Shown piece by piece: positions 1,263 through 22,160 of a stretch of 29,541 nucleotides of DNA; the first letter of the stretch is position 1, and every line of letters starts with the position of its first letter. Under the pieces are notes generated by a model, which saw nothing but the letters and a program-made list of their open reading frames with translations, made no database searches and had not been told where the DNA came from. The stretch comes from a virus. Position numbers and translations under genes: made by a program. The stretch is taken from positions 1 to 29,541 of IMG/VR virus record IMGVR_UViG_3300008459_000259; one strand, written 5' to 3'.

Positions 1263-1631
1263 TTATAATAAATCAGAAAAACTTACAAAAATTTCTGATT
1301 GATCTGGCATTTTTACTGTTAAACCTAGCTTTGTAACACCTACAACAGTACCCTTATTTCCTTGAAAAGATCTTTTATTGTATTTTCTAACTCTCGTTGG
1401 ATTGAAGCTAATTTCTATTGGTTTGCTTTCCGCTGTACCTTCTGTATCAGTTTCATCGCCACCTTCAGCGCCTCCCTCAGCATCTGCCTCTTCACCACTA
1501 GCATCTTCACCACCAGTAGCTGCAAATGGGTTTTCTGCCGCTCCTGCGTCATCTCCTCCAGCTGTTTCAGTGTCTTTTTCTTCATCAGCTTCTTTGAGTA
1601 CGTTTAATGGTATTAGTGATTTGAGTTTCAT
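1263..1631 (-). CDS. Small acidic head-region protein with MKLK leader
   Basis: This 122-residue protein starts with a basic hydrophobic leader (MKLKSLIPLNVLKEADEE) whose L-K-E/A matches the (I/L)-x-E cleavage rule of T4 gp21. Residues about 20-70 are an acidic Asp/Glu/Gly/Ala linker. Residues about 75-122 are basic then beta-rich (K-G-T-V-V-G-V-T), resembling a small KOW/SH3-like barrel, though this is only pattern-level. Its ATG overlaps the upstream stop as TAATG, so translation is probably coupled. It lies between protease and scaffold, where T4 encodes or borders its small core proteins (gp67, gp68), so a prohead core or internal head role is plausible. No homology-level identification is possible from the sequence alone. 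Confidence 0.75.
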   Translation of the reverse strand: MKLKSLIPLNVLKEADEEKDTETAGGDDAGAAENPFAATGGEDASGEEADAEGGAEGGDETDTEGTAESKPIEISFNPTRVRKYNKRSFQGNKGTVVGVTKLGLTVKMPDQSEIFVSFSDLL

Positions 1632-1837
1632 TACTTTAGTTCTTTTTCTTTTTCTTTAGCAAGTTTGGCTTGTAACTCTGCCTCCTTTGTTTTTAAAGGT
1701 GCCATTGACTTATTCATAGGCTCCAACTTCTTTTTTACAACATCTAACTCCTTTTGTACAGAAGCTGAATCTTCTGACATGATAGACTTTATCTCATTGC
1801 GTATTAAATTCCGCAATTCTGTTAGTTTAGAGTTCAT
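1631..1837 (-). CDS. Small coiled-coil head-region protein with LIRxEI leader
   Basis: This 68-residue protein starts with the leader MNSKLTELRNLIRNEIKSIM-S-E, an amphipathic helix of the L-R-x-x-I-R-x-E-I type also found in the genes at 8196-8471 and 7874-8194. The rest is a highly charged coiled coil (V-K-K-K-L-E, E-A-E-L-Q-A-K-L) ending in a Lys/Glu tail. It starts inside the last codons of the upstream gene (11-nt overlap), which suggests translational coupling. Its position in the protease-scaffold cluster and its size suggest a minor core or internal head protein. That role is inferred; I do not recognise a named family. Confidence 0.7.
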   Translation of the reverse strand: MNSKLTELRNLIRNEIKSIMSEDSASVQKELDVVKKKLEPMNKSMAPLKTKEAELQAKLAKEKEKELK

Positions 1838-2210
1838 AGTATCTGTTTAATGTGCTGCCAATTTCTTCGTATAATGCTTCTAATCTTTGTTGTAATTTAG
1901 AAACTTCGTGCACAGATTGATTAAATTGTTTTACATTCTCTCTCAACTGTTTCATATTTCTCTTGACTGTTATTTCATCAAACCACTCATCCGTCTCTTG
2001 CAGCATTATGTTTTCAGCTTTTTCAGTTAGACTTGATATAGCTTCTGCCACTTTTTTTAAATCAGCTGTTCTATAAATTACAGATTCGTATGCTGTAAAT
2101 TGCTTTACTTCTTCCAAAAAAGCTGCTTTATCAGACTTAGATGCTTTTGGTTGTTGTGTATCAAAATCTTCAAGTAGAGATTTTAATTTTATACCTTTAT
2201 TTGATTTCAT
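1827..2210 (-). CDS. Helical head-region protein with IKLKSLL leader
   Basis: This is a predicted 127-residue all-helical protein. I choose the ATG at 2210, which overlaps the protease stop as TGATG. A GTG one codon earlier (2213) could add one residue. The N-terminus reads M-K-S-N-K-G then IKLKSLLED, related to the MKLK leaders of neighbouring genes, with L-L-E/D as a possible gp21-type cleavage site near residue 15. The remainder is rich in heptad-like helices (K-Q-L-R-E-N-V-K-Q-F, L-Q-Q-R-L-E-A-L) and ends in Tyr-Tyr-Glu-Leu. It sits directly after the protease gene. A prohead core or internal protein role is inferred from position and leader; no catalytic motif is visible. Confidence 0.72.
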   Translation of the reverse strand: MKSNKGIKLKSLLEDFDTQQPKASKSDKAAFLEEVKQFTAYESVIYRTADLKKVAEAISSLTEKAENIMLQETDEWFDEITVKRNMKQLRENVKQFNQSVHEVSKLQQRLEALYEEIGSTLNRYYEL

Positions 2211-2812
2211 CACTGTAGTGTTATAATATCGTTAATAATCTGATTAACTTTTCCGTATTTCGATGCAATGTTATGAGTTACGCTTTCATTCACTGGATTC
2301 ATAAATGCTCCTTGAGTTGAAGGATTTGATACTAAATCCCAACATACGATAGTATAATCGTCTTGCACTTCTACTTTACCTTCACCAATAGACTTAACTG
2401 ATCCCATTCCTCTTGATGATATACCTAATCTTATTCCAGCTTTTAAAAGCTCCTTAGCTATGTTGCCGGAAGGTGTTGGTAGTATTTCAATCTTGCCCAT
2501 GAGATTGTTACCATCCCACCAAAGATCTAATACGTTATGAGATACATTTGCTAAGTTAACTACTGGACTTTCTGGATGATCTAATTCACCTAAAGCTCTT
2601 TTTTCTGATATGAAAACTTTTTTGTAGTTATCTGCCTCTCTTCTCAACACATCAGTTGGGTATGATCTATTGTTTTGGTTCAAAGAATCACAACGCTGCA
2701 TGACACCAGCTAGTATTAGCTTGCCGTCATTTTTTAGCATAGACTCATTGATCTGCTGCGGTGTAAGTTCAAATGCACCAACATAGTCAACTATAAGTCT
2801 TTTATTTTCCAT
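2210..2812 (-). CDS. Prohead core protease, gp21-type (200 aa)
   Basis: This is the maturation protease that digests the scaffold and trims head proteins before DNA packaging. Its length (200 aa) matches T4 gp21 (212 aa). Family blocks are visible in order: N-R-S-Y-P near residue 47; A-L-G-E-L-D-H-P near residue 75, with the probable catalytic His; a D-L-W-W-D-G-N block; and G-I-S-S-R-G-M-G-S-V near residue 130, with the probable catalytic Ser. T4 gp21 has corresponding N-K-R-L-Y-P, A-L-G-E-L-N-H-P and S-S-R-G-L-G-S blocks. It cuts after (I/L)-x-E in T4, and such sites occur in the leaders of several small proteins in this window. A TATTTATA motif lies 7 nt upstream of its ATG. Confidence 0.93.
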   Translation of the reverse strand: MENKRLIVDYVGAFELTPQQINESMLKNDGKLILAGVMQRCDSLNQNNRSYPTDVLRREADNYKKVFISEKRALGELDHPESPVVNLANVSHNVLDLWWDGNNLMGKIEILPTPSGNIAKELLKAGIRLGISSRGMGSVKSIGEGKVEVQDDYTIVCWDLVSNPSTQGAFMNPVNESVTHNIASKYGKVNQIINDIITLQ

Positions 2813-2819
2813 TTTTAAT

Positions 2820-2827
2820 TATAAATA
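2820..2827 (-). promoter_or_regulatory. TATTTATA motif upstream of the protease gene
   Basis: The sense strand reads CATATTTATAATTAAAAATG, so the box ends 7 nt before the start codon. It is one of eight near-identical boxes placed just before genes in this window. It is the reverse complement of the T4 late promoter box, and its function is unknown. Confidence 0.5.
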
Positions 2828-2832
2828 TGTTG

Positions 2833-3564
2833 CTATGATAATTTATTAATAATCTTTTGCACTATATCTTTATCATTTATAGTACCAACTACCTCACCCT
2901 TATCATCTTTAATGCTATTGTCAACGACATCAAATCCTATAGGTTCATTATTTACAAATACATCAAATCCATTACCATCCTCTGTCTTTTCGGCATCTAA
3001 CGCAAATGCTTGCAACTGAGTTATTATTCTATCAACTTTTGAGTCATTAAGCTGCTTTTCTATTTCTCTCAAGTTTGCAAATTTGCGAGTTTTTTGTGCA
3101 ACTTCGTTCATTCGCTTTGAAATCTTCAACAAAGCTTCATTGGTCTTTTTCCAGTGTGCTGTATCGTCTAAGTTTGACTCTAGTTTTAATTTATGGGCAT
3201 GTGATATTAATGTATTAATTTCTCTAAGTTTTCTATTAATATCAATGATGGATTCATTTACTTTTTGTATAGTAGACCTCGTTTCATCACTCTTAAACTC
3301 ATTATAATTAACCTCATGCAAATCTATTGAGTGTTTTCTAGTTTTAGGTGCCTTTTTATCATAAGCTGTTGCGTGTGATATTCTTTTTATATCAGTTGCA
3401 CCATCACCACCTTCCTCGCCAGTAAATGCAGCTGGTGTAAGAAAGCCTGGAACTCCAGCAGTTGTGCTGCCTTCATTCTTTAGCTTTTTAACTTTCTTAA
3501 CGTATTTCTTTATTTCGCTAAGCTCGTTACTTGTGAGCGCTTTCAAGTTCTTTTTTGAGTTCAT
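2833..3564 (-). CDS. Helical protein of unknown function between portal and protease
   Basis: This 243-residue protein has a Lys-rich N-terminal helix, a G-V-P-G-F-L-T-P-A-A-F-T-G segment near residue 37, a long central helical region (about residues 95-180) and a beta-rich C-terminus (about residues 195-235, with F-D-V-F-V-N-N-E-P). The start ATG lies 38 nt inside the upstream gene, the longest coding overlap I accept here. No nearby downstream Met offers a better start. Its place between portal and gp21-type protease corresponds to the T4 gp67/gp68 region, so a prohead core or neck role is possible. I recognise no enzyme motif and do not assign a function. Confidence 0.78.
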   Translation of the reverse strand: MNSKKNLKALTSNELSEIKKYVKKVKKLKNEGSTTAGVPGFLTPAAFTGEEGGDGATDIKRISHATAYDKKAPKTRKHSIDLHEVNYNEFKSDETRSTIQKVNESIIDINRKLREINTLISHAHKLKLESNLDDTAHWKKTNEALLKISKRMNEVAQKTRKFANLREIEKQLNDSKVDRIITQLQAFALDAEKTEDGNGFDVFVNNEPIGFDVVDNSIKDDKGEVVGTINDKDIVQKIINKLS

Positions 3565-4384
3565 GGTATAATAATAAAGAGAGTACGTTATTTTCTTGCA
3601 CAGTTTTAAGCTTTTTGTACTTATCTAATAAATTTGCTACCTCAACTAATTTAATCTTAATTACTTTGTCTTTTATTTTTTTAGAGGCTTTTTGTAAGTT
3701 TTCTTGTAAAGATAGTGCTTCTTTTTGGACGTACTCTCTTAGACTTGTTGTATTAGATACATTATTAATGTACTCTTTTAATATCTCTTTTTGTTTTAAT
3801 GATAAGTTTTTATATTTATCGTTAAACTTATCAACTAGTAACCTATAAGCAAGTAGCCTAACATCTTCGCTTTGGTTTCTGTACTCTTTTATAATAGTGT
3901 TATCTGCTGCTAGTTTTGGTTTTTTCTTATTGGTTATGTGCTCAATTATAGTAAATCTACTCTCAACTAATTCATGTGGGTTAATGAAGTTTGTACCTTC
4001 AAAGACACGATATATAGAAGCATATAGCTTATAGTCATTAAGTGATGTTTTGAACATCTCTTTAGCATCATAATGCCTACTTATTTCTCTAATAATATTA
4101 TACTTTTCCTCTTTGAGCTTTTTAATGTTTATCTTTTTGCGAGCATCCAACACTGCCTCTATTAAATAAGAAGCTTTATCAGTAGACTTGTAGCTCTCCT
4201 TAATGAGTGCTTGATACAATGCCAACTCTTTTGCTAAATTTGTATTAGAGTTAAAGTACTCTTTTACTATTTTAATAGCAGGTGAGTTATCAACACCTTT
4301 TACGGTATCAGATGCTATCTGCCTAGTTAGCAATTCAAATAAAATTGCTGTGTTTTTTATCTTAGAATGAGTTGACTTCTTCAT
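3527..4384 (-). CDS. Helical protein of unknown function downstream of the portal gene
   Basis: This 285-residue protein is basic and almost entirely alpha-helical by composition. It starts M-K-K-S-T-H-S-K-I-K-N-T and has an I-L-F-E-L-L-T-R-Q-I segment near residue 15. My recollection is that T4-like marine phages carry comparable proteins next to the portal gene, without an established function. The start follows an 18-nt perfect palindrome overlapping the portal stop codon. No transmembrane segment, signal peptide or catalytic motif is visible. A capsid-assembly role is inferred only from the packaging/head location. Confidence 0.8.
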   Translation of the reverse strand: MKKSTHSKIKNTAILFELLTRQIASDTVKGVDNSPAIKIVKEYFNSNTNLAKELALYQALIKESYKSTDKASYLIEAVLDARKKINIKKLKEEKYNIIREISRHYDAKEMFKTSLNDYKLYASIYRVFEGTNFINPHELVESRFTIIEHITNKKKPKLAADNTIIKEYRNQSEDVRLLAYRLLVDKFNDKYKNLSLKQKEILKEYINNVSNTTSLREYVQKEALSLQENLQKASKKIKDKVIKIKLVEVANLLDKYKKLKTVQENNVLSLLLYHELKKELESAHK

Positions 4385-4388
4385 ATGT

Positions 4389-4406
4389 AATAAATATATA
4401 TTTATT
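4389..4406 (-). promoter_or_regulatory. 18-nt palindrome containing the TATTTATT motif, overlapping the portal stop codon
   Basis: AATAAATATATATTTATT is a perfect palindrome spanning the portal stop codon (4402-4404) and ending 4 nt before the next start codon. Its half-sites resemble the TATTTATA box seen before seven other genes, here as TATTTATT in the sense direction and AATAAATA in the other. It may be a variant of that signal. Confidence 0.45.
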
Positions 4407-6228
4407 CATCTAATATACTTTTTTCATCAAGCAAACCTGTATTATCTTGCACTTTTTCTTCTGTTAACGTCTGTTTCATAGCTGCTGGTTTTTGACTACG
4501 AAAGTTAATTGCCTCTCTAACCCTTTCTGCGTCGCTTGTTTCATAAACTTTTCTATTTTCTTTGTTACCATGTGGATCCCATCCAAGCGGATGACTATGC
4601 GTACCATAAGTACCAGGCTCTTCAGGCCTACCTGCACCTGGCCAACCACCTTTTGGTATCCTTTCATTATATCCTGGAGGTACACCGCCATTGCCTTTGT
4701 ACAAGCTTGCTATGTCATGTGCTGTACCAAAGGATTGGCCTGTTTTCATTGGATCATTACCCTCAGTTTTTATCTGCTCTAATTGGAAGAAGTCTTTGTT
4801 ATCTTGAATCATTCTTTGCTGTTCAACTGTAAACTGTTCTGGTGACAAGTTAAATATCTTCTGGTATATCCACTCTTTACTAAAGAGCTTCTTTTCCATC
4901 ATATCACCCGCAAGTGTCATTTTAGCTGTCCACAATTCAATCTTCTCTTTCTCGTAAACAGTGGACGGAGCTGTGAATCCTAGTTCAAAGTCTACAACTT
5001 CCTCGTCGGTAAATCCTTGTGAGTATAAGTGTATAATAGCCATCTTGTATAGCTCGGAAACAATTATACGCTGTACTCTTTCAATTGTACGCGCAAATCT
5101 AAAATCCTGTGAAGCTAGCGTAGCCTTACCACTTATATCTTCTTCATAACCTAAATAAGCTTTTGGTATTTTGAGTGATCCAAGCAATCTACCTTTCAAG
5201 TATTCTATATCTTGTATACTATCAAAATTCAAACCACCTAAATTTTCAATCGATGTACCACTTTCACCACCACGTACAGGCAAGTAAAAGTCTTCCATCA
5301 TATTTTGAATATTGAATTTTAAGTTATATTGACCAGTTTCTGGATCCATGTATGGAACTTTTTTCATTTTGTTGACTGTAAGTTCCATAAAAGCTTCTAC
5401 CTCATTGGGTGGTATATTACCAATATCAATCTTAAATACACGCTTATCGGCTGCTCTCATAATACGGTGAATTAACATCGCATCTTCCATTAAAACAATC
5501 TGCTTCCACACCTTTCTTGATGGTTCAATAATAGATCTGCCGTATGGTAAAAAGTTTGTATCTGTTAGCAATCTAAAGTGAGCTATCTCATAGTTATCGT
5601 ATTCCTCACCCTGCTGGTTAATCGTAGCGTATCCACTGATTGCGGATACATCTCTTTTAAATCTAACTCTATGAGGATTATCTGGATCAAACATCTCCTC
5701 ACGTATCATCTCATATGCGGATATAGGTTCAACACCTATAATTCCAAACTTCTCTGCTATATTAAGTTTTAAGTAAAAATCGCCGTATTTGAGCAAGTTC
5801 CTTGTCCAAGGCCACATATTGAACTCTATGTTTAATATGTCATAGAAAAGGTTACGTAACACTTTATGTACCCTTTCGTTTTGAGATCTTATTGTAAGTA
5901 CATCGCCAAACTCATCTTTATTTGTACACTCATCTGCGTATATGTCTAGAGCTGACGCTATAATACTATCTGTATCCATTGCTTCGTAGTCTCTAAACAA
6001 CTCAATACGCGAGCTGTGCAGTAATTGACCTTGATAATAACTTAGACCTGGTACATTCTGATATACTCTAGACCATCTGTCAACTCTTCTATTTGTTTCA
6101 ATATTACCGGCTGATTGGATCCTATCTGTGTCAATAACCTTGAGCTGGTTACCACCGACATTTCTAATGATAACATCCGTCGAAAATAATCTTTTAAGCC
6201 TATTAAATAAACTATTAGGTTCGGCCAT
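4402..6228 (-). CDS. Portal vertex protein, gp20-type (608 aa)
   Basis: The portal forms the dodecameric ring at one capsid vertex through which DNA is packaged and to which the neck attaches. The N-terminus L-F-S-T-D-V-I-I-R followed by G-G-N-Q-L-K-V-I-D-T matches my recollection of marine T4-like portals. Further family-like blocks are I-A-S-A-L-D-I-Y-A-D-E-C-T near residue 90 and P-K-A-Y-L-G-Y-E near residue 355. It is longer than T4 gp20 (524 aa), with the excess in a Pro/Gly-rich segment (about residues 505-555, P-P-G-Y-N-E-R-I-P-K-G-G-W-P-G) and a charged C-terminal tail. It lies directly downstream of the terminase gene with a 34-nt gap holding a TATTTATA box. Identification rests on family blocks, length and synteny. 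Confidence 0.92.
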   Translation of the reverse strand: MAEPNSLFNRLKRLFSTDVIIRNVGGNQLKVIDTDRIQSAGNIETNRRVDRWSRVYQNVPGLSYYQGQLLHSSRIELFRDYEAMDTDSIIASALDIYADECTNKDEFGDVLTIRSQNERVHKVLRNLFYDILNIEFNMWPWTRNLLKYGDFYLKLNIAEKFGIIGVEPISAYEMIREEMFDPDNPHRVRFKRDVSAISGYATINQQGEEYDNYEIAHFRLLTDTNFLPYGRSIIEPSRKVWKQIVLMEDAMLIHRIMRAADKRVFKIDIGNIPPNEVEAFMELTVNKMKKVPYMDPETGQYNLKFNIQNMMEDFYLPVRGGESGTSIENLGGLNFDSIQDIEYLKGRLLGSLKIPKAYLGYEEDISGKATLASQDFRFARTIERVQRIIVSELYKMAIIHLYSQGFTDEEVVDFELGFTAPSTVYEKEKIELWTAKMTLAGDMMEKKLFSKEWIYQKIFNLSPEQFTVEQQRMIQDNKDFFQLEQIKTEGNDPMKTGQSFGTAHDIASLYKGNGGVPPGYNERIPKGGWPGAGRPEEPGTYGTHSHPLGWDPHGNKENRKVYETSDAERVREAINFRSQKPAAMKQTLTEEKVQDNTGLLDEKSILDE

Positions 6229-6240
6229 CTACGCTTTTTT

Positions 6241-6248
6241 TATAAATA
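6241..6248 (-). promoter_or_regulatory. TATTTATA motif upstream of the portal gene
   Basis: The sense strand reads AGTATATTTATAA followed by an A-rich stretch, and the box ends 12 nt before the portal ATG, in the 34-nt gap after the terminase stop. Same motif as at seven other starts. Confidence 0.5.
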
Positions 6249-6262
6249 TACTAAATTTTAAT

Positions 6263-7846
6263 TTACAAGAGCCAATTTAAATCTTCTTGTTTACCTTGTC
6301 TCGTATCCATCTTCCATGGATTATTTTCTGGTCTACCTCCAACTACAATAGACGGTGTTTGTCTAACAATATTTGATACTGCTGCTTTATTAATATCTAT
6401 ACCCATTTGACGCAGCTTTAATGCTGTATCTCTAACCCACAGACCTTCACAGTAGGCAAGTATCAAGTCATCGTTATAACCACTTTGTGCTTGTGCTTTA
6501 TCATTTTTCCATACAAATACCATCAACTCATCTATCAAACGCTTACTTCTAATAGTACCGCTTCCTTCTCTAATATATTGTTCCATTTTAGATACAGCAA
6601 GTGGTCTTATTCTAGGACTCATTGTAAATCCAGCTACCATATCAGTTCGACTTGCCATATCATATCCCTTCATTAAGAAACGATCTGTGTCAAACACATT
6701 TTCTTTGTACGAGTAGTATAAATTCTTATACTCTCTTTCTTGTATCTGTTGTATTGTTGCCCATCCAATATTTGCATTTTCAACTACTAGCAATGCATCA
6801 TTGTACTCAGTTGCTGCTAGCACAAGCATGTTACCAAAATCTCTAGTGCTAAGTTGACCTTTATATTCTGCAACCTGTACTGCTGATTCGACATCAATTA
6901 TATGAAAGGTTGAATAGTCACTACCATCACCTCTTGCAACGTCTGCTGCTACTATGTAGTTTTTAGAATAGTCAGGATGTTCCCAAATCCAATAGTTACC
7001 ATCAAATCCCTTTTTTTCAATTGGTTCTTTAACAGTCTTTTTTATTAATTCATTTAACAACACGGGTGATATAACAGTATTACCGGAAGTAGAAAAATCA
7101 CAATCACATTCCTGGGCTGCTAATCTTATACCTAATTCTACATCCTGTTTTTGTCTCCATGTGATGTCTCTTTCGGGATGTACTTGCCAAGGTAGTCTTA
7201 TTGTATTAAAATTATTCTCACCAGTTTCTGCCATGGTCCACATTTTGTGGAAAAAGTTACCGGTACCATTTGGTGTTGATAATAATACTGCTCTACCTCC
7301 AGTTGATAGTGTTTGTTGCAATGATGCCCATAACTCTTCTGCATTGTCGACGAAAGCTGCTTCGTCTATAATAACCAACGACAATGCTTCAGATCGACCA
7401 GATGTGCCTGTAGATGCTACAGCTTTTATTTGAGAGCCATTGACCAACCTAAGTGATAATTTATTATCCTCTGCTGATTTCATTTTTAGCCATGATGGTA
7501 AATTTTCATACATGACTCTAACCTTTGTTACTAGATTTTTAGATGTAGTTTGGTCAATCGCTACTACAAGTATGTTTTTGTCATTATTAAACAAAATCAT
7601 CCACAATGAGTATCCAGCTATTAGTGTAGATATACCTAGTTGTCGTGATTTTAATATAATATTTCTATCAAACTTGTTAAAAGAATCTATTGCATCTTCT
7701 TGATATGGATATAGTTGAAAAGGTATTTTACCTTTAGTTGGATGCTGAATAACGCAATACTTTTTCATAAAGTATGCGGGAGATAGTGCACATTTTTTGT
7801 ACTCTTCTCTAATAATTTCTTTAATAGACTTTTGCTGATCGCTCAT
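6263..7846 (-). CDS. Large terminase subunit, gp17-type (527 aa)
   Basis: This is the packaging motor ATPase and headful nuclease. The N-terminal ATPase has the P-loop region L-K-S-R-Q-L-G-I-S-T-L (residues 65-75), Walker B V-I-I-D-E-A-A-F (158-165) and the coupling motif L-L-S-T-P-N-G-T-G (188-196). The C-terminal RNase H-like nuclease shows acidic residues in V-A-A-D-V-A-R-G-D (D302), L-V-V-E-N-A-N (E356) and Y-N-D-D-L-I-L-A (D459/D460). The P-loop lysine sits upstream (K66) and the usual GK[ST] position has Ile, a variant known in terminases such as lambda gpA. The portal follows immediately. No tail sheath or tube genes lie between them, unlike T4. The start has no clear Shine-Dalgarno sequence. 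Confidence 0.95.
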   Translation of the reverse strand: MSDQQKSIKEIIREEYKKCALSPAYFMKKYCVIQHPTKGKIPFQLYPYQEDAIDSFNKFDRNIILKSRQLGISTLIAGYSLWMILFNNDKNILVVAIDQTTSKNLVTKVRVMYENLPSWLKMKSAEDNKLSLRLVNGSQIKAVASTGTSGRSEALSLVIIDEAAFVDNAEELWASLQQTLSTGGRAVLLSTPNGTGNFFHKMWTMAETGENNFNTIRLPWQVHPERDITWRQKQDVELGIRLAAQECDCDFSTSGNTVISPVLLNELIKKTVKEPIEKKGFDGNYWIWEHPDYSKNYIVAADVARGDGSDYSTFHIIDVESAVQVAEYKGQLSTRDFGNMLVLAATEYNDALLVVENANIGWATIQQIQEREYKNLYYSYKENVFDTDRFLMKGYDMASRTDMVAGFTMSPRIRPLAVSKMEQYIREGSGTIRSKRLIDELMVFVWKNDKAQAQSGYNDDLILAYCEGLWVRDTALKLRQMGIDINKAAVSNIVRQTPSIVVGGRPENNPWKMDTRQGKQEDLNWLL

Positions 7847-7873
7847 TGTCTTTATTGTAACCTAATAAGATAA

Positions 7874-8194
7874 TTATTTATCTTTTTTTGCCGCTTGGAT
7901 TGCCTTATCTCTAGCACCTTTCCACTCATCTTCGGACTTTTCAACCTTACCATCTTTGTCGTAGTCCTTGTTGGCCATTTCTTCTCTAATTACACTTCTT
8001 ATTTCTCTACGTATATACTCACGTAGTGTTTTTTGCTTTGATTCCATAATTGTATTTTCTTTTGCGTTAATATGTAAAGCAGCTAAGTATTTTCTTAGCT
8101 CTTCTTTAGTTCCTCCTGTTGCTCCAACTCTTTCACCAGAGTCCTTTTTATAGACAACATATTCATCACCTATTTTTTTATACTTGTACGGCAT
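7874..8194 (-). CDS. Small composite protein: basic N-terminal domain, LIRxEI-type helix, EF-hand loop
   Basis: The 106-residue frame has three parts. Residues 1-49 (M-P-Y-K-Y-K-K-I-G-D, then G-G-T-K-E-E-L-R-K-Y-L-A-A-L-H) look like a small domain I recall from marine phage proteins. Residues 50-72 (M-E-S-K-Q-K-T-L-R-E-Y-I-R-R-E-I-R-S-V-I) are a leader-type amphipathic helix like those that begin the 68-aa and 91-aa proteins, followed by I-R-E/E. Residues 77-88 fit a 12-residue EF-hand calcium loop: D77, D79, D81, G82, V84, E88. An ATG at 8047 could also start a 57-residue product beginning at that helix. The gene is 1 nt downstream of its neighbour. Function is unknown; calcium binding is inferred from the loop only. 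Confidence 0.75.
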   Translation of the reverse strand: MPYKYKKIGDEYVVYKKDSGERVGATGGTKEELRKYLAALHINAKENTIMESKQKTLREYIRREIRSVIREEMANKDYDKDGKVEKSEDEWKGARDKAIQAAKKDK

Positions 8195-8195
8195 G

Positions 8196-8471
8196 CTATA
8201 GTTGCAATTTTCCTTTAATATTCCTAAGTACGCCTATCATCATACCCCTTTCGTATCCTAACTTATTCATAATATCCATAAATGCGTCAGCTAGTTCATC
8301 GGAATTAACATCTTGCATATTATTTCTTATAGCTCTTGTATAAGCTGAGTTAATTTTTGCCATTGCATCTACTCTATTAACTTCTGGTTCTTCTGCCTGA
8401 TCCTTTTCAACATTTTCAGATAGGATGTTTTGTATCTCCTTGCGAATGAGATCTCTAAGTTCTTTTTGCAT
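8196..8471 (-). CDS. Small helical protein with LIRxEI leader
   Basis: I choose the ATG at 8471, which follows the upstream stop as TAA-T-ATG and yields 91 residues beginning MQKELRDLIRKEIQNIL-S-E. An ATG 12 nt earlier (8483) would add four residues and overlap the previous gene. The leader is an amphipathic helix of the L-R-x-x-I-R-x-E-I type shared with the genes at 1631-1837 and 7874-8194. L-S-E/N fits the gp21-type (I/L)-x-E cleavage rule. The remainder has Y-T-R-A-I-R-N-N-M and A-D-A-F-M-D-I-M-N-K-L-G-Y-E-R-G-M helices. No enzyme motif is seen. A capsid-targeted internal protein is a reasonable hypothesis, not an established identity. Confidence 0.75.
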   Translation of the reverse strand: MQKELRDLIRKEIQNILSENVEKDQAEEPEVNRVDAMAKINSAYTRAIRNNMQDVNSDELADAFMDIMNKLGYERGMMIGVLRNIKGKLQL

Positions 8472-8472
8472 A

Positions 8473-8880
8473 TTATTTTGCATCTTTATATATTTCTAGA
8501 AACTTAGTTGTTTTTGCATCAAAGTTCTTTTTATCTTTATCATCAAACATTATATGCTCAACCTTACCATCTTTCATTTTCATCTTACATACAGTTGCAT
8601 CAGACATTTCGAGTCCAGTCAAAGTATATATTACACCAAATACAGCTTGCTTTTCCTCAATCTTTGCCATTAACACTGCTTCTTTAATGATAAGATCTAA
8701 TTGTCCAACATTTGGTAATTCTGCAGTGAATATATGTTGCTCTGATTTTGTGCCTATAAATTTAAATAATGGCTTGTATCCATGTGCTGTTTGGAATTCA
8801 CGGAAATAAGGCAAAGCCATGAGTTCTGGACTCATTTCCTCTTTTGCCTCTTTAATTGGTATTAAGTTTTTCAGTTTCAT
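8473..8880 (-). CDS. Small protein with MKLK leader, unknown function
   Basis: This 135-residue protein starts MKLKNLIPIKEAKEE, closely parallel to the leader of the acidic head-region protein at 1263-1631 (MKLKSLIPLNVLKEADEE). I-K-E/A is a possible (I/L)-x-E cleavage site. The body (residues about 20-135) is mixed alpha/beta with an F-K-F-I-G-T-K-S-E-Q-H-I-F-T-A-E-L segment and a Lys/Asp-rich C-terminus. It overlaps the upstream stop by 4 nt (ATGA), implying coupled translation. No known domain is recognisable by eye. The shared leader and the phage-encoded protease suggest a processed, head-associated protein. Confidence 0.75.
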   Translation of the reverse strand: MKLKNLIPIKEAKEEMSPELMALPYFREFQTAHGYKPLFKFIGTKSEQHIFTAELPNVGQLDLIIKEAVLMAKIEEKQAVFGVIYTLTGLEMSDATVCKMKMKDGKVEHIMFDDKDKKNFDAKTTKFLEIYKDAK

Positions 8881-9125
8881 AGTATGATGATTGCTATTTT
8901 TCTATTGTGTATCACAAGTGCCAATTCTGCTAATTCATTTTTGATTCTAGCATATTCCGGATCACCTGTGTCTTTTAGCATTTGCAAAGTATCTGCTATC
9001 CAAGCTTTTGTTATTATTCTTGGCTCTTCGTCTTGTGCCTGATCTTGTAAGAAAGATATCATATCACTACTTAATTGTAGATCGTCTAACATTACAGCGT
9101 TATATATCCTTGGATTTCCATTCAT
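8877..9125 (-). CDS. Small hypothetical protein (82 aa)
   Basis: This 82-residue protein reads M-N-G-N-P-R-I-Y-N-A-V-M-L-D-D-L and then alternates acidic and hydrophobic helices, ending with a hydrophobic I-A-I-I-I-L tail that is too short to be a transmembrane segment. It starts a translationally coupled group (82, 135, 91 and 106 residues). A TATTTATA box lies 13 nt upstream, and an A-rich leader precedes the ATG. No motif allows a functional call, and I do not recognise the family. Its gene status rests on tight packing, the 4-nt overlap with the next gene and the upstream box. Confidence 0.65.
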   Translation of the reverse strand: MNGNPRIYNAVMLDDLQLSSDMISFLQDQAQDEEPRIITKAWIADTLQMLKDTGDPEYARIKNELAELALVIHNRKIAIIIL

Positions 9126-9138
9126 CTTTTGTGTTTTT

Positions 9139-9146
9139 TATAAATA
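9139..9146 (-). promoter_or_regulatory. TATTTATA motif upstream of the 82-aa gene
   Basis: The sense strand reads GAGATATTTATAAAAAACAC, ending 13 nt before the ATG, in a 37-nt gap. It has the same GATATTTATA core as the copies before the genes at 12943 and 17634. Confidence 0.5.
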
Positions 9147-9162
9147 TCTCAAAGGCACATAA

Positions 9163-9474
9163 TTATGCGTTTGGTACATATTTGTACATCAGCGGTTTTG
9201 TAACTTCTACATCTCCTTGTTGTTGTATACTAAAAAAGCCACATTCACCATATTCGTTATTAATTAAATTTGTTAATGGATCAATAACAGTATTAAATCC
9301 AAATTTATTTATCATTTCAAATAATCTAGACTGATCTTGTGGATATGCAACAATCGATCCATCAGGTAGCTGGTATAAGGCATAGTACATATCGATTTGT
9401 CTTATTGTTACCTTTTGGTGACCTAAAGACACTTTCTCGCTCTCTTCTCTTAATAATGACTTTAACTTTATCAT
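9163..9474 (-). CDS. Small protein with MIKLKSLL leader, unknown function
   Basis: The open frame extends to 9531, but I choose the ATG at 9474. It follows the upstream stop as TAA-T-ATG, and the resulting 103-residue protein begins MIKLKSLLREESEK, matching the leader family of neighbouring genes. L-R-E/E is a possible gp21-type cleavage site. The body contains V-T-I-R-Q-I-D-M-Y-Y-A-L-Y-Q-L-P-D-G-S-I-V-A-Y and a C-terminal G-E-C-G-F-F-S-I-Q-Q segment, suggesting a small mixed alpha/beta domain. No catalytic motif is evident. An internal or head-associated role is inferred from the leader alone. Confidence 0.72.
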   Translation of the reverse strand: MIKLKSLLREESEKVSLGHQKVTIRQIDMYYALYQLPDGSIVAYPQDQSRLFEMINKFGFNTVIDPLTNLINNEYGECGFFSIQQQGDVEVTKPLMYKYVPNA

Positions 9475-9475
9475 A

Positions 9476-10267
9476 TTACCATTTTCTACAAGACCAATAT
9501 CTTGCTTTGTGTTTTGGTCCTGGGTTGTCACAATTATGTCTTGCTCTGAATGATTTTCTTCGCTCAGGGTTAGATTTTTTAATTCTCATGTTAGGATCAC
9601 CAAAGTTTACTTTCACAACTTTGTCACCCTTTTTAACATAAACTTTGAATTTTTTTACATCACCTCTCATTGGTTTATTGAGAGGTACGTTTCTACCTTG
9701 GTACTCAGCTTCTGTTATTGAAAACTGACCACTTCTCATATCCTCGAGTAATGCAATTGCACACTCATTACATACCGATACCTCGTTAAAAGAACCACCT
9801 TTTGTTAACATAATGTCCGTTGTTTTCTCCTCTGGGTACCTTACCTTTTTGACTTTGATGTCTGGTGGTAGCTTTTGTAATAGGCTTTGCCACGCTCTTT
9901 CTGCTTCTGCTGATCTAAACACAGAATGCATTACTATACCCGGTTTCTTGTTTAATAAAGTAACAATAGCTTTTTGGTAGTATCCTTTGCCTCTATGTGC
10001 TGGATCTATATTGGCGTCTATTATTGTATAATGTACATTGTCGTAGGTTTCTAATTCAAATGTCCCAATTACCTTATCATTCTCAATAATGGAAACTGTC
10101 ATGCCATCACCTGACTCTTGTACTTTTATTTCTTCGTTTGTAGCATTTATTTTTTTAGCTGCTGCAACTGCTTTGTTATACTCTTCCGAACCTTTTCGTG
10201 CAGGCTTTTCCCCTCGAGCCCTTTTTGCTCGAATATTGTGCCAAAGTCCTTTTGATTCTTCATTCAT
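9476..10267 (-). CDS. Fusion: basic N-terminal segment, GNAT acetyltransferase domain, C-terminal basic domain
   Basis: I choose the ATG at 10267 (263 aa); a TTG at 10273 is less likely. Residues 1-45 (L-W-H-N-I-R-A-K-R-A-R-G-E-K-P) are basic and phage-typical. Residues about 55-155 resemble a GNAT fold with the acetyl-CoA loop A-H-R-G-K-G-Y (90-96), so N-acetyl transfer to an unknown acceptor is plausible. After F-S-I-T-E/A-E-Y-Q-G (182-191), an (I/L)-x-E site, comes a basic Cys-containing domain (about 198-263: K-F-K-V-Y-V-K, F-G-D-P-N-M-R-I, R-R-K-S-F-R-A-R-H, Y-W-S-C-R-K-W) that I recognise as a DUF5872-like phage domain of unknown function. The start overlaps the upstream stop by 8 nt. 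The GNAT call is moderate. Confidence 0.8.
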   Translation of the reverse strand: MNEESKGLWHNIRAKRARGEKPARKGSEEYNKAVAAAKKINATNEEIKVQESGDGMTVSIIENDKVIGTFELETYDNVHYTIIDANIDPAHRGKGYYQKAIVTLLNKKPGIVMHSVFRSAEAERAWQSLLQKLPPDIKVKKVRYPEEKTTDIMLTKGGSFNEVSVCNECAIALLEDMRSGQFSITEAEYQGRNVPLNKPMRGDVKKFKVYVKKGDKVVKVNFGDPNMRIKKSNPERRKSFRARHNCDNPGPKHKARYWSCRKW

Positions 10268-10730
10268 TTTCAATGTTTTTTAAATCTTGTTTTGCTTGCT
10301 CAATATGAGATTCTGTTAACTCCTCTAACCTCTTTCCTGAGTTACCTATCCATGCTTCAACGTCGCCATCTTCTGTAATAAGATTGTTATTTGATTCTTT
10401 TATAAACTCAGTCATGTAAGATTCTAAATCAACCATAAATCCTTTAGCGTTGGATAGTATGCGATTTTTTTCATATTCCTCGTACTTACCTTGCTTACGT
10501 AATTCGTGTTCAAACTCTATTGTGCAATCATGGCAACATCCATTAAATGTGAACATTTTTTGATCTAGCCAATGACTTAAACTCTTACTACACTTTGGAC
10601 ATGCCAGTGGAGTGTGAAGCTTTTTACGTGTTTCACTCATTTTTGTAACAGTGCGCTTGACACCATTTTTAATGGTCCAAGTTTTACCTCTTTCTGTCCA
10701 AACATCACCTTCTTTATAACTGTTGATCAT
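10260..10730 (-). CDS. Zinc-ribbon protein of unknown function
   Basis: I choose the ATG at 10730 (156 aa; M-I-N-S-Y-K-E-G-D-V-W). An upstream in-frame start at 10781 would overlap the previous gene by 68 nt. Residues 12-30 are a basic beta segment (R-G-K-T-W-T-I-K-N-G-V-K-R-T-V-T-K). Four cysteines in C-P-K-C (44, 47) and C-C-H-D-C (65/66, 69) form a probable zinc ribbon. The C-terminal half is helical and acidic. Comparable proteins occur in T4-like marine phages to my recollection, but no function is established. A nucleic-acid or protein-binding adaptor is possible. It is translationally coupled with both neighbours. Confidence 0.75.
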   Translation of the reverse strand: MINSYKEGDVWTERGKTWTIKNGVKRTVTKMSETRKKLHTPLACPKCSKSLSHWLDQKMFTFNGCCHDCTIEFEHELRKQGKYEEYEKNRILSNAKGFMVDLESYMTEFIKESNNNLITEDGDVEAWIGNSGKRLEELTESHIEQAKQDLKNIENE

Positions 10731-11073
10731 CTTGTTCTGGTTTTTCTTCTGCTTTTGGTTGTAAATTATATTTCTTAACAATATATTTCATATTTTTATT
10801 AAGACGAGCAACAGCTTTTTGTAATTCATGCTTTACTGCTAATCTAAACTTGTCTTTCTCTGCTTCATCTCCTACTATCCTAGCAAAATCCTTTCCACCT
10901 GTTGAGCTTATGCTTATTGTAAAGTTTAACTCAGGTTTGCCTGAATCACCTACACTATGGAAAGTATGGTTTAAGTGAAATGTAAGATTGAGTAATGGCA
11001 CCTCACCAACTGCTTCTTTTTTCTCTCTAAGCAGTAAAGCATCTCTATGTGCTAATAATTCTTTTAGTTTCAT
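10714..11073 (-). CDS. Small protein with MKLKELL leader, unknown function
   Basis: This 119-residue protein begins MKLKELLAHRDALLLREKKE, another member of the MKLK leader group, although its possible cleavage site (L-R-E/K) lies slightly further in. A beta-rich middle (about residues 27-60: L-N-L-T-F-H-L-N-H-T-F-H, then L-N-F-T-I-S-I-S-S-T-G-G) is followed by a basic helical region (about 70-105) and a Glu/Gln-rich tail. It lies 4 nt downstream of the nucleotidyltransferase/ligase fusion gene, so the two are probably co-translated. No known domain is recognised. Confidence 0.7.
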   Translation of the reverse strand: MKLKELLAHRDALLLREKKEAVGEVPLLNLTFHLNHTFHSVGDSGKPELNFTISISSTGGKDFARIVGDEAEKDKFRLAVKHELQKAVARLNKNMKYIVKKYNLQPKAEEKPEQDDQQL

Positions 11074-11077
11074 ATTA

Positions 11078-12943
11078 TTAAAATCTTAGGTATCCTAATA
11101 TTTGATTTATTGGTGCAAAGGCACCAGTTAACTTGTACAACTTACCATTATATGTAAACACTAAGCCTTCAGTTGGTACAATTGCCTCATACCCACCAAG
11201 CTCTTTAAGTCTATTTAATTCTCTTTTTAAGAAAGCTGTTGCTACCGCACTGTCCTGGTATGATGGTGATTTTGCTGCAGCCTTAATTTTTGATATAGCA
11301 TTTTTAAGACTCGTCTTCATATTCCTAACAGAAGCATCAGGATTAGCTGATACTAAATTTTCTATATTTCTCAAAACTCTTGCACCTAACCTCAAGAAAA
11401 GCATTTCTACTGGTCTTCCAGCCACTTTCTTTTGATCTGCTAATTGGTTTGCTTCAAAATCCGTCATCCATGTTTTAAAATCCTCGTTATCGACCATATT
11501 ACGGATATCTCTTATAGATGTTGATTTGTCTGTAAATGCCCATCTTTTTATCAACAAACGCAAAACATCTTTTGGTATCTTATACTTGTAATTTTTTGCA
11601 TTTTGCGTTATAAAATCTTTCCACCAATTTAAAAAATATAATGACAATTTATCATCATCTTTCAAACTATATTTACTTTTTATGTCACTCAACTGATTAA
11701 GAAATTCATTCCTTTTGTTTTTATAATCCTCATCTGGTCTTATAGTAGCTGGGTCTGTTGATCTTATCTGATATGTTTTTTGTGTAGTTGCTTTGACTTG
11801 ATCCAATGCTGCTTGCAATCTTGCAACAGGACCTTGATCCTCTGAAACAACATTACCATTTTCATCATATGTTTTTATGTGATGCATTCTTATTTGTGCT
11901 GCACCATATGGTATTACGTTTGCAGTACCAGGGTACAGTATTTCTAAAGAAATAAAGTTTTGACCATCAGCAAAGATTTCTTCTTTTTCCTGTGGTGGTA
12001 GCTTCTGAATAGCGGATTCTAAATCCCTCATGGCCTCAACAAATGCAGTTTGTATTTCTCCTCTATTGCTAAACTGTTTTTGCATCTGTTCTATAGACAA
12101 AGAATTTTCACCATGATTTTTAATTTGACCTTTATTCCTAGCTGCTACTACTTTACCATTTTTGTAAGATACCATTAGATTTTGTCCGTCTAATTTTTCT
12201 TGAGCTAACTCTAACTTACCAGTAAGAGCTGCGTCAATCATATTTTCAATATCTTTAAATGTCAAATTAACATCTTCATACGGATGGGCTAAATGGCCTG
12301 CTGCACCTCCTTCATTAATAATCTCTTTTATATATTTTGTTAGTATACTAAATATTTGTTTTACTATATCATCCGGTACATCAGGGTAGTTAGTTGCGAA
12401 GTTATTTAAATTTTTATTTTTAAGATCTGATCTTAATACCGATGCACTTATACCTTTCTTATCAAAAGAATCATCTCTTCCACTATACAACAAAGGCTTT
12501 GTGTTTACAGGTAGCTCTTGTACTATCACGCCGTCTCTTCTATACTTGCCAGTATTTCCGTGATCTTCTACAAACTTTTTTACTCTCAAATAATCATCCC
12601 CTTTGCTACTAGATGCTAACGCATAATTACCTTGAGGTGCATTTTCAATGTATTCGTAGGCTGCTGATAATGGTGATTCTACATTAGTTGGCATTACTTC
12701 TACATTTGGTAAATCTTTTGTTAAGAGTTTCCATATTGCTATTGATTGATCTCTTGTTATACCATCTCTGGACTTAGGACCAACTAAAATTACAACCTTT
12801 TCAACTTGTTGTAAACCAAAATAGGCCATAACAAGCTCTAAATGGCCTGCGTGTGGTGGCTTAAATCCACCTGGTAGTAACACAGTTATACCACCTGTTC
12901 TCTCTATAAGATTCTCTATTAGATATTGCGCTAAACTATTCAT
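11078..12943 (-). CDS. Fusion of HxGH nucleotidylyltransferase and ligase-like covalent nucleotidyltransferase
   Basis: A 621-residue two-enzyme protein. Residues about 18-205 form a cytidylyltransferase/NMNAT-like Rossmann domain: G-G-F-K-P-P-H-A-G-H (25-34, HxGH) and I-S-A-S-V-L-R (165-171, ISxTxxR-type). Residues about 215-621 carry the motifs of ATP/NAD-dependent ligases and capping enzymes: I, E-K-L-D-G (K250 probable adenylated lysine); A-R-N-K-G (268-272); III-like, S-L-E-I-L-Y-P-G (332-339); IV, E-G-L-V-F (592-596); V, K-L-Y-K-L-T-G (601-607). A helical insert of about 200 residues separates III from IV. Substrates are unknown. NAD-related chemistry, nucleotide activation or RNA/DNA end joining are options. 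The N-terminal Y-L-I-E-N-L-I-E/R segment also fits a gp21-type leader. It overlaps the upstream gene by 8 nt. Confidence 0.85.
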   Translation of the reverse strand: MNSLAQYLIENLIERTGGITVLLPGGFKPPHAGHLELVMAYFGLQQVEKVVILVGPKSRDGITRDQSIAIWKLLTKDLPNVEVMPTNVESPLSAAYEYIENAPQGNYALASSSKGDDYLRVKKFVEDHGNTGKYRRDGVIVQELPVNTKPLLYSGRDDSFDKKGISASVLRSDLKNKNLNNFATNYPDVPDDIVKQIFSILTKYIKEIINEGGAAGHLAHPYEDVNLTFKDIENMIDAALTGKLELAQEKLDGQNLMVSYKNGKVVAARNKGQIKNHGENSLSIEQMQKQFSNRGEIQTAFVEAMRDLESAIQKLPPQEKEEIFADGQNFISLEILYPGTANVIPYGAAQIRMHHIKTYDENGNVVSEDQGPVARLQAALDQVKATTQKTYQIRSTDPATIRPDEDYKNKRNEFLNQLSDIKSKYSLKDDDKLSLYFLNWWKDFITQNAKNYKYKIPKDVLRLLIKRWAFTDKSTSIRDIRNMVDNEDFKTWMTDFEANQLADQKKVAGRPVEMLFLRLGARVLRNIENLVSANPDASVRNMKTSLKNAISKIKAAAKSPSYQDSAVATAFLKRELNRLKELGGYEAIVPTEGLVFTYNGKLYKLTGAFAPINQILGYLRF

Positions 12944-13449: not shown

Positions 13450-16400
13450 TTAATCTTGTATTATCGTTCCACCTTCCCATGTACCTCTCTTGGGCTTTTG
13501 GATAAAGGTGTCTCTAAAATTAGCTGGCTTAATGAAGTTTGGATCAGTTGTAGTTCCTATTTTACACCATTCAATATCCGATATCATACCTCCCCACAAT
13601 GCTGGGGAGCTAGGAAGGACACTACTTACGTGGTTTATGTTATAGTAATCGTTGTTTTGCAATGTTAGTTCAATACCACTTGCATCGAATGTCAACTGAG
13701 CTCTATCACCATATTGTACTAGAATAATGTCAAAGGTTTCAACATATGCTCCCGATCCAGAATCGTAATACCTTAACAAAGGTGCTGTTCCATACCCATT
13801 CCCTATTGTCACTATATTATTGTTGGGTGGGTAGAAGCCTGGTGTTCCTTTCTGCCACTTTGATCCAGTTAGTAATGGAGATGCAACATCGTGTATATAT
13901 ACCATTAACTTTGCTCCATCTTGTGTTGCATATCTATTATTTATATCCACCGCAAGAGCCCAGTCAAGTACTTGATTATTTGCACCCGTCCAACCAAGGT
14001 CCTCGTAGGTTACTCCTGGTACAGGAAAAGGTGTACCGTTATTAGTAAGGGACGCAACACCTGCTTGTTTTGTCTTTTGTGGAAATCTCTTTAATTTAAA
14101 ACGTACATTATATATTCCACCATTTTCGTTGAAACCGTAAATATAAGTCTCATTATTAGTTGGAAAATACAATCTTGTTTGTTTTAAGTAATTATTTAAA
14201 TTATTTGTTTCAGCTTGACTTTGTTGTATAGTAAAGCTGCTACTATACTGCAAATTATCTACTGCTTTGGCAATGTCTATTGTTTGTATTACTGCTCCAT
14301 GTGTCTTTGTAAACGATTGACCATCCTCACCAAGTGATTGCGTTACTGATATTGTATTAATACTATGCATTTGCAAAAAAGGTGATGTTCCAGGCATTAC
14401 TTGATCATACATTGGCATGATTGGATCAAATCTTCTCCATAGTGAATTTATTGTATTTGACGATGTAGTCCACGACAAACTTTCACTACTATACTTTATA
14501 CCAACGTTATAATTTTGAATATTCCAATAAAAACCATTAGAGGTGTTCAAACTATATGTTGGCCAAAAATAAATGGTCGATGGTGGTGGATCAATGTCCC
14601 ATATCATACTTCTAACATAGCTATCCGGATCACTAGTAACATATGAGGATGGTGACAATAAGCTAGCAATAGATGATACTGTACTATTAACTGTACCATT
14701 AGTAGATGCTTCGTAGTAAAGAGGACAGTGGTCATTAAAACGAGCTGCTTCTGCTGAGCAAAATCCAGGTACCTCTGTTATAAGATTCATTTGCACATTT
14801 GGTATGTACGTTGAGAATTCTGATTGCTTCCCTTCATAATTAAAGTATTCTACTTTTAAATCTATTGATTGTGTAAGTGATGCATCGTCATCTTGTAGAA
14901 TCCATATACTATCTGGTACCGATGCTGCAAACTGAAGTATAGTTGGTGTGTATCCAACTAAATCTAACGGTGTTACGCTAATAGATGAAACGTATGCGTT
15001 TTTATCAATTGTGCTGTTGGTGTTCAAAAACAAAACAGGTCTTCCATAACCGTCTGCGTCTGCAAAAAAGTCAAATACTACGTTGTCATAACTCTTTGTT
15101 GTACTACCACTAATATTTGATATCTTACCAATCATCTTACCAAACTTATTATAAGCTTTGGAAATAGTAGGGTCCATATTTCTTGATTCATTAAAAGCTT
15201 TTGGACCCTGAATACCTATAACACCATCTTTCAAAGGCGTACTACCCATGTACACTTCTAACTCACAGCCTGGGTCTAATGTACAGTAAAAAGATAGAGA
15301 GAAAGGCTGGTTTGGTATATATGTTTGGTAATATCTACTCGCTATACCTTTTTTAAGTGTGTTTTTACTTGTTATAACAACTGCATTTGCGAGTGGATAT
15401 GAGCTAGTGGTGTTGTAGTTGTACTGGTATATATTTTTGTCAGCTTCTACACCAAAACCTCTCCAATATTGATCTGCAATTGATGCGTCAGTAAACTCTC
15501 CATAAACGAAAGAATCGCTTTTATTTTTAGCGTATGCAGCTTGGTTTGGCTTATCCGAATCTATTAAATACTCAGGTGGTACAACTATGTGATCGTTTAA
15601 TTGCTTGTATTCTGTGTTTGAACCTGCCTCTTTTACATAAGTTTTTATTCTATAAACATCGCCAGCAATTGGCTCTAAATCTGTTATTGTAAATTGAATA
15701 AATGATGAGCTAAGGTTTTGTGACGATATTACATTTAATGATGATGTTGGATATATAAAGGAGCCTGATATATTTGATACTTTTCTAAATGTTTGATTAT
15801 ATCTTACTGGATTTATAGTGTTCCTACTATCAAATACTTGTACACTTAGTGGTGTATCTAATAAGGCATATTTATTACTAATAACATAAACAATCTTAGC
15901 TTTATAAGAATCAAGTTGACTAACCACGTTAGATACTGGGGTTATCGTACTAGATGTGTATGGTGGTGTAAAGCTGTAACTCGATGTGTAGGATAATCCA
16001 TCATTTGTGTTTTCAAAGCTAAATATGGATCCTTCCATATCCTTTGTAAATCTATTCTGATTATCTACTAATATTGTATTATATCTTGAATATTCAGAAT
16101 ATACAAATCCATTTGTAATGTCGTTATCATACCTTCTGATATTTGTTTCTATTGTACTTGTTGTTATTGATTCACCAAAGTAGTTGTATGTATTATCTTT
16201 ACTCGCTTCATCTAATATATCAATTGTTCTATTATTAGAGAAGTCAAAGCCAGCATTATCTGACCTAAGTAGTGTTAATCCATACAAGCTTTGTGATGTC
16301 AGTCTCGATGCCAATGCATATGTTCCTAAATTAAATTGATATGGAACAAGTACTTGTGATACTTCAACTGTTGGTGATTGCTCAAAGACTATATCCTGGT

Positions 16401-21761: not shown

Positions 21762-22160
21762 TCACGTGAGCCAACTATCTGGTATTTCCTTTTCTGCATA
21801 TATAAATCCATTCTTATCGCACCACTCTGCGTATGTAGTTTTGGATTTTTTACTCAGCCTGTTATTAGCATTGTAAAATAAAAACCGTATATCCAAATCA
21901 GGATATTGTTCTTTTATTAATAAGTGTTTTTTTCTATCTGCAGCTGTAAATCTACCTTTTGTTTCAACAAATATACCATTTGGTAATTTAAAATCTGGTG
22001 TGTATTTGTGCTTCGATGCTGGCTTTGTGTAGTGAACTTTATGTTGTTCGTATTCACCATCTACACCCTTAGCTTTAAGGGCCTCATCAACAGTTTCTTC
22101 TAAACCACTTCTATATCCCTTTATTCTTGCTGCTTGTCTTTTTGTAACCTTTTTTTTCAT
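21762..22160 (-). CDS. Endonuclease I, T7 gp3-type Holliday junction resolvase
   Basis: This 132-residue enzyme is clearly related to T7 gp3 (149 aa). It cuts branched DNA, including Holliday junctions, so that recombination and replication products can be packaged. The nuclease residues are present with T7 spacing shifted by one: E21 in R-S-G-L-E-E, D56 in Y-T-P-D-F, and E66 and K68 in F-V-E-T-K-G, against T7 E20, D55, E65, K67. R-K-K-H-L-L-I-K-E-Q is also shared with T7. T4 uses an unrelated resolvase (gp49), so this is a non-homologous choice. The ATG overlaps the upstream tail gene stop as TAATG. The primase follows after 24 nt. Confidence 0.95.
   Translation of the reverse strand: MKKKVTKRQAARIKGYRSGLEETVDEALKAKGVDGEYEQHKVHYTKPASKHKYTPDFKLPNGIFVETKGRFTAADRKKHLLIKEQYPDLDIRFLFYNANNRLSKKSKTTYAEWCDKNGFIYAEKEIPDSWLT

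Follow-up and report, generated by a model that had tools for sequence, protein, structure and literature searches.

Short leaders shared by unrelated small proteins of an uncultured T4-like phage resemble capsid-targeting propeptides

The DNA analysed here, referred to as the window, is a 29.5-kb phage fragment (29,541 nucleotides) from IMG/VR record IMGVR_UViG_3300008459_000259, and it carries a set of small genes that share short N-terminal leaders. It is a T4-like contig with nearly every gene on the − strand, including all window features located below by start and end positions, and with its head genes in a T4-like order. TerL (6263-7846) and the portal protein gp20 (4402-6228) are followed by a gp21-type prohead protease of the Peptidase_S77 family (2210-2812; Pfam E 2.2e-28, PHROG 207 E 9.5e-57), with two genes without assignment (3527 and 2833) between portal and protease. 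Three small genes (1827, 1631 and 1263) separate the protease from a protein in the position of the gp22 scaffold (55-1128), and in relatives the order continues with the major capsid protein (MCP) after the scaffold. In an alignment with T4 gp21 the protease retains the catalytic triad (H79, S132/133, D159), which together with the Pfam match bears out the identification made in a preliminary description of this DNA. The cultured phages with the most similar proteases (~52% identity) are immuto, a Flavobacterium phage, and the Microcystis phage Mel-JY01.

The preliminary description also reported five small genes with similar leaders and unrelated bodies. All five open reading frames (ORFs) lie on the − strand, start with ATG and have the N-termini given there: MKLKSLIPLNVLKEA (1263-1631), MKSNKGIKLKSLLEDF (1827-2210, where six residues, MKSNKG, precede IKLKSLLE), MKLKNLIPIKEA (8473-8880), MIKLKSLLREES (9163-9474) and MKLKELLAHRDALLLREKKEA (10714-11073). 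Each leader is followed within 20 residues by the gp21-type site (I/L)-x-E, as had been proposed, with P1 at residue 14, 14, 11, 10 and 17, respectively. With an arrow marking the predicted cut, the leaders are MKLKSLIPLNVLKE↓A (1590-1631; cut after E14, which is invariant in ortholog alignment A5), MKSNKGIKLKSLLE↓D (2169-2210), MKLKNLIPIKE↓A (8848-8880; 13-ortholog alignment A4), MIKLKSLLRE↓E (9445-9474; 10 residues, in the register of T4 gp24 and IPIII) and MKLKELLAHRDALLLRE↓K (11023-11073; orthologs MELKKLLSE↓K and MRSTRLKTLLE↓K). The five bodies form separate clusters, and Pfam and PHROGs searches with them returned no convincing match. Across the window, 10 pairs of N-terminal 22-mers score at least 26, compared with a mean of 2.6 for shuffled N-termini and 2.1 for random internal 22-mers, and 0 of 300 randomisations reach this pair count under either control. 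For any single protein (I/L)-x-E is by itself weak evidence; the cut-site case draws its strength from an offset that is fixed across relatives.

This offset was measured in proteins from relatives' loci that were fetched by protease similarity, not by leader. There, (I/L)-x-E stands at one exact offset after a KLKxLL-type motif in 63 of 127 N-terminal cases versus 14 of 249 internal ones (p 1e-22), counts that include orthologues and whose members are not all independent. When 53 leader proteins with mostly different bodies are aligned, one column, E10, is near-invariant; the set was partly chosen for (I/L)-x-E near the N-terminus, which makes the alignment an illustration and not a proof. 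The leader could instead stay uncleaved and serve as a helix that docks onto an assembly or host factor, anchoring proteins to the core or portal for instance, with (I/L)-x-E incidental to its Glu-rich, amphipathic character. Such a helix would fit the leader-like N-termini of TerL proteins, the abundance of Glu in these proteomes and the unconstrained P1' residue. However, the site at the exact offset is far commoner than after internal look-alikes, the cut-site Glu is invariant when leaders swap and the leader is associated with S77 contigs, which together make a docking helix improbable.

The set extends beyond the five genes of the preliminary description and includes a second leader type, LRxLIRxEIxxIxxE (type B). 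Type B stands at the head of 1631-1837, a 68-aa protein encoded between protease and scaffold (leader MNSKLTELRNLIRNEIKSIMSE↓D, 1772-1837; LSE↓D, IKE↓A and LRE↓Q in relatives), and of 8196-8471, a 91-aa protein (leader MQKELRDLIRKEIQNILSE↓N, 8415-8471). In 7874-8194 it is internal, at residues 50-72 (MESKQKTLREYIRREIRSVIREE, 7979-8047), behind a conserved N-terminal domain. Different leaders also occur on one and the same body. Among orthologues of 1263, a single NPFAA body carries four leaders (MKLKSLIPLNVLKE, MKENLNELRDLIRSYVVKALRE, MRYGKSLLERHIRKIIKEYLRE and MKLVTNKNTLIDILGELMLE) in which the only invariant residue besides Met is the cut-site Glu, E14 (alignment A5), and in the 8473 family one body follows MKLKNLIPIKE, MKLKDLLPLQPINE or MMKLKNILNE (alignment A4). 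This exchange of leaders around a retained cut-site Glu links the KLK type to the LRxLIR type in function. Leu and Ile codons vary in the leader, roughly as they do in the bodies, and the conservation is therefore at the protein level. These observations bear on the possibility that the similarity resides in the DNA, with recombination or regulatory sequence at gene starts shuffling small genes and the peptide a by-product. Adjacent runs of leader genes in some genomes and the exchange of cargo bodies between genomes are in keeping with such shuffling, but the codon variation and the replacement of one leader sequence by another with the cut site retained leave it very improbable.

The gene directly after the protease, represented in the window by the 127-aa protein 1827-2210, encodes a family with 5.2 (I/L)-x-E sites versus 2.25 expected, and is above expectation in 46 of 49 genes, which are orthologues and not independent; the window member has 6 versus 2.4 expected. 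Because this syntenic family is rich in sites throughout, 1827 is better read as a core protein that is cut to pieces, and it is probably a prohead-core protein degraded in maturation, like T4 gp22, gp67 and gp68, rather than injected cargo. As in proteins of that kind, it has many internal gp21 sites and its gene adjoins that of gp21. Genes 1263 and 1631 share its core interval, with 1263 encoding a 122-aa acidic Gly/Ala-rich protein that has a conserved C-terminal domain, is conserved near gp22 and is a probable prohead core component. The scaffold itself has 14 sites versus 8.4 expected, with internal MRMKELAGIAE and C-terminal NRFKQLAGIIKS motifs, and gene 3527 also exceeds its expected count. 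The products of 1827, 1631, 1263 and 55-1128 are thus likely analogues of T4 gp67, gp68 and gp22, being small or acidic, near gp21 and rich in (I/L)-x-E, but the T4 genes precede gp21 whereas these follow it, and homology was tested for the scaffold position only. The preliminary description regarded the whole set as capsid-targeted proteins; the reading of the leaders as targeting propeptides with a gp21-type site survives, while 1827 is reassigned to the prohead core.

In contrast, three proteins encoded upstream of TerL show no excess of internal sites (observed/expected 3/2.2 for 8473, 2/1.3 for 9163 and 2/1.8 for 10714) and occur sporadically among relatives, and for these reasons they are better cargo candidates. 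The first, of 135 aa, has a helix and an antiparallel sheet; in its AlphaFold model residues 1-14 are unstructured (pLDDT <50) and the rest is folded, and a PDB fold search with this model found no significant match. The 103-aa product of 9163-9474 is found in 4 relatives, and the 119-aa product of 10714-11073 belongs to a cluster of 7 relatives. These three are the best candidates for cargo in the window, along with the type-B proteins 8196 and 7874. It is also conceivable that every leader protein in the window is a degraded and expelled prohead-core component, analogous to gp67 or gp68, and that none is injected. The location of 1827, 1631 and 1263 between protease and scaffold and the richness of 1827-slot genes in cut sites favour this possibility, but the sporadic occurrence of 8473, 9163 and 10714, their lack of a site excess, and the enzymes encoded by leader-bearing genes elsewhere render it unlikely.

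Beyond the relatives, a degenerate DNA pattern for MIKLK[D/N]xLxE matched at least 120 viral stretches, compared with 2 for a reversed-codon control, and a second pattern, for MKLK[D/N]ILxE, also matched at least 120. The motif lies at a called gene start in 66 of 79 viral loci stored from the first scan versus 8 of 60 loci from cellular genomes (p 2e-17); the 60 were all the pattern stretches in 257 Gb of cellular genomes, and several of the 8 are on contigs with further leader genes. The motif is short and its residues are common, as would suit chance resemblance or an effect of K/L/E-rich composition, but the reversed-codon, window-shuffle and gene-start controls refute this explanation, and its probability is negligible. 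The two viral scans yielded non-redundant leader proteins that BLAST groups into at least 129 body families. In an alignment of 111 family members, L4 and E10 are invariant and K3, K5 and L8 nearly so, at a mean column identity of 4%, although the loci were selected by a pattern that fixes most of these positions; for this reason the independent support is the protease-anchored offset count. Most of the 111 have no Pfam match. Those with matches include NUDIX, GNAT, zeta-toxin/AAA_33 kinase, RimK ATP-grasp and, weakly, MPTase-PolyVal proteins, as well as two muralytic kinds, M23 with phage lysozyme and a cell-wall hydrolase, and the protease-anchored set adds a NUDIX protein, 5'-nucleotidases (NT5C) and a weak MPTase-PolyVal match. 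At 6468-7706 (−) of locus L199, a KLKHIL-type leader precedes an M23 peptidase and phage lysozyme protein, unexpected as head cargo. A scan of the leader proteins for defence families gave weak, scattered matches only, and in the open-licence literature we found no report of the leader in marine or Far-T4 phages.

Besides being virus-specific, the leader goes with contigs that encode an S77 protease: at a length of at least 40 kb, 24 of 40 leader-bearing contigs have an S77 match versus 2 of 21 random contigs chosen by an arbitrary 15-mer (p 1e-4). Counted over the window and five long genomes, three kinds of leader-like N-terminus show a 5x higher frequency within 14 kb of the protease. This proximity differs by genome, with separate islands of leader genes in some and runs of adjacent leader genes in some.

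The T4 internal proteins IPI, IPII and IPIII likewise combine an N-terminal leader, of 10 residues, with unrelated small proteins, an (I/L)-x-E site and a gp21-family protease. For packaging, IPIII needs no more than its first 10 residues; positions 4 and 7 are important for targeting, and positions 8 and 10 for processing (PMC9026906). The 9163 leader, MIKLKSLLRE, has hydrophobic residues at 4, 7 and 8 and Glu at 10, as in IPIII, and the MIKLK set does likewise; other window leaders are shifted or longer. IPII and IPIII (MKTYQEFIAE↓A) share the register of MIKLKxLLxE, and the T4 gp24 propeptide (MAKINELLRE↓S) is nearly the same decapeptide with the same cut position, although gp24 is a shell vertex protein rather than internal cargo. 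Where T4 internal proteins have KTYQEF, the leaders here have KLKxLL, and no MKTYQEF-like leader is present among the KLKxLL and LRxLIR types of the window. Because the leader is so near the gp24 propeptide, the earlier suggestion that this set is independent is doubtful. Three internal proteins are known from T4 and at least 10 have been reported from related T-even phages (PMC9026906, PMC12373910), whereas the body families here number at least 129 and some cargo candidates are recognisable enzymes. An enzyme is also packaged and injected by T4: the ADP-ribosyltransferase Alt has a propeptide cleaved by gp21 (PMC5694885, PMC9026906), but Alt differs in having a 6-residue N-terminal plus a C-terminal propeptide. 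Among the leader-protein bodies no ADP-ribosyltransferase was confirmed; a likeness noted by eye in the nine-member L351 family was dropped, the one model being of low confidence and without a fold match. In the inner body of phiKZ and SPN3US, propeptides are cut after Glu by an S77-related protease, and the N-termini of the paralogues gp53 and gp54 are identical (PMC5694885); the differences are an A-x-E motif (SPN3US) and mostly longer propeptides.

Because T4 gp24 and IPII/IPIII share their register, the leaders look like T4-type propeptides. The sequences display a short leader of ~7-20 residues on unrelated mature parts, (I/L)-x-E at the end of the leader and, in the same genome, an S77 protease with its catalytic residues, and we estimate a probability of roughly 85% that the leaders are T4-type capsid-targeting propeptides. 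Several points weigh against this assignment. The TerL N-terminus (KSIKEIIREEY) mimics the leader and is a false positive, as it belongs to the terminase core. The P1' residue is unconstrained and therefore cannot confirm cleavage, and position 10 of one NUDIX leader is D, a substitution that prevents the processing of T4 IPIII. For the muralytic leader proteins, a place in the tail or a role in lysis would be more natural. Finally, 16 of the 40 leader contigs have no S77 match, two of them 126 and 207 kb long; fragmentation explains some of these, and it cannot be distinguished from the use of other proteases.

A third leader type is related to the C-terminus of the scaffold. In immuto, two proteins with different bodies (genes at 111675 and 25061) start with MKKQILSEQF[RK]RMQ[KF]LAGIITES, a sequence similar to SEVSEQVSRWQKLAGIIK at the C-terminus of the scaffold; when the scaffold end is shuffled, the better of the two scores is reached anywhere among the N-termini of the immuto proteome in 1 of 2000 trials. 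A run of small genes in genome G002 (103040-106318; locus L098 5540-8818) has MKKSRLQELAGIKE-like leaders of this third type on different bodies. When scaffold C-termini were compared with N-termini, immuto alone yielded a match; the window, G001, G002 and seven other loci yielded none. Some leaders may therefore work by imitating the scaffold end, but this was seen in 1 of 10 genomes tested and is a lead rather than a result. General mimicry of the scaffold by the KLKxLL leader was considered and rejected: the best scaffold window, KLQSMLS (residue 34), is not significant per protein over ~350 windows. The KLQSMLS window recurs in homologous scaffolds. Cultured immuto has a further shared leader, F[D/N]L[K/R]xFLxEN[K/R]LTxNSxxL, on the different bodies of gp003, gp092, gp077 and gp076 (L082, L084).

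If the leaders are capsid-targeting propeptides, a leader protein expressed late would use a short segment, its hydrophobic residues placed as in T4, to attach to the core or the shell of the prohead during assembly. Once it is enclosed in the prohead, cleavage after (I/L)-x-E at the end of the leader by the gp21-type S77 protease would free it. Protease-adjacent proteins (1827, probably also 1631 and 1263) would belong to the core and be cut into fragments that are mostly expelled, while proteins of the variable block upstream of TerL (8473, 9163 and 10714, with type-B 8196 and 7874) would be cargo, retained by the head and probably delivered to the host together with the DNA. We infer packaging, cleavage, ejection and a function of the cargo in the host from these sequence features.

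Other window genes deserve mention. A nucleotidyltransferase-like protein (11078-12943) has an N-terminus, MNSLAQYLIENLIE, that is a possible further leader of uncertain status (MNSLARYLIESLIKE↓A in a relative). Its long second part contains EKLDGQN, resembling a nucleotidyl-transfer (ligase-type) motif; relatives of residues 208-621 occur in Mel-JY01 and in two jumbo phages that are uncultured, and a Pfam search of the protein gave no match. The product of 9476-10267 has a GNAT-like centre (Pfam E 0.0014), and its N-terminal stretch and C-terminal Cys/His stretch each match a separate PHROG family of unknown function. An N-terminal helix followed by E↓(A/G)S(V/T)T is common to the 2833 family (2833-3564) and the MCP of relatives (QLIKEGSATTAG), which suggests that both lose an N-terminal piece. 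A single 1052-aa ORF (17659-20817) joins an Mre11-type phosphoesterase (Metallophos, residues 14-125) to a Rad50-type ATPase (AAA_23, residues 380-620), functions that T4 encodes in separate genes, 47 and 46. Despite the T4-like character of the contig, 21762-22160 encodes a phage endonuclease I (PF05367, E 5e-57), a T7-type Holliday-junction nuclease. The phrase (R)ALVNR/SIVSR occurs in many copies in the first 330 residues of a 1394-aa protein (13450-17634) for which no Pfam match was found, and one copy, GRALVNRTA, is present in a 268-aa protein (24902-25708).

The principle of leader-directed packaging is known already from T4; new here are the leader class, its spread, the enzyme cargo candidates and two leaders of a Flavobacterium phage with a likeness to the C-terminus of its scaffold, which offer a concrete idea of the targeting mechanism. 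The odds seem about even that uncultured aquatic T4-like phages load a large, fast-changing repertoire of enzymes (NUDIX, GNAT, kinase, ATP-grasp and peptidase) through interchangeable tags, some of them scaffold-end look-alikes, and that the injected repertoire can be read from gene starts. T4 internal proteins inhibit type IV restriction enzymes (PMC12373910), which makes the leader families candidates for counter-defence and host take-over. Phage head and injected proteins are known for few phages, mostly through mass spectrometry, and the at least 129 body families found here, mostly without domain annotation, compare with ~10 internal proteins reported in T-even phages. A decapeptide tag that is readable from sequence would make the discovery of injected proteins a genome search.

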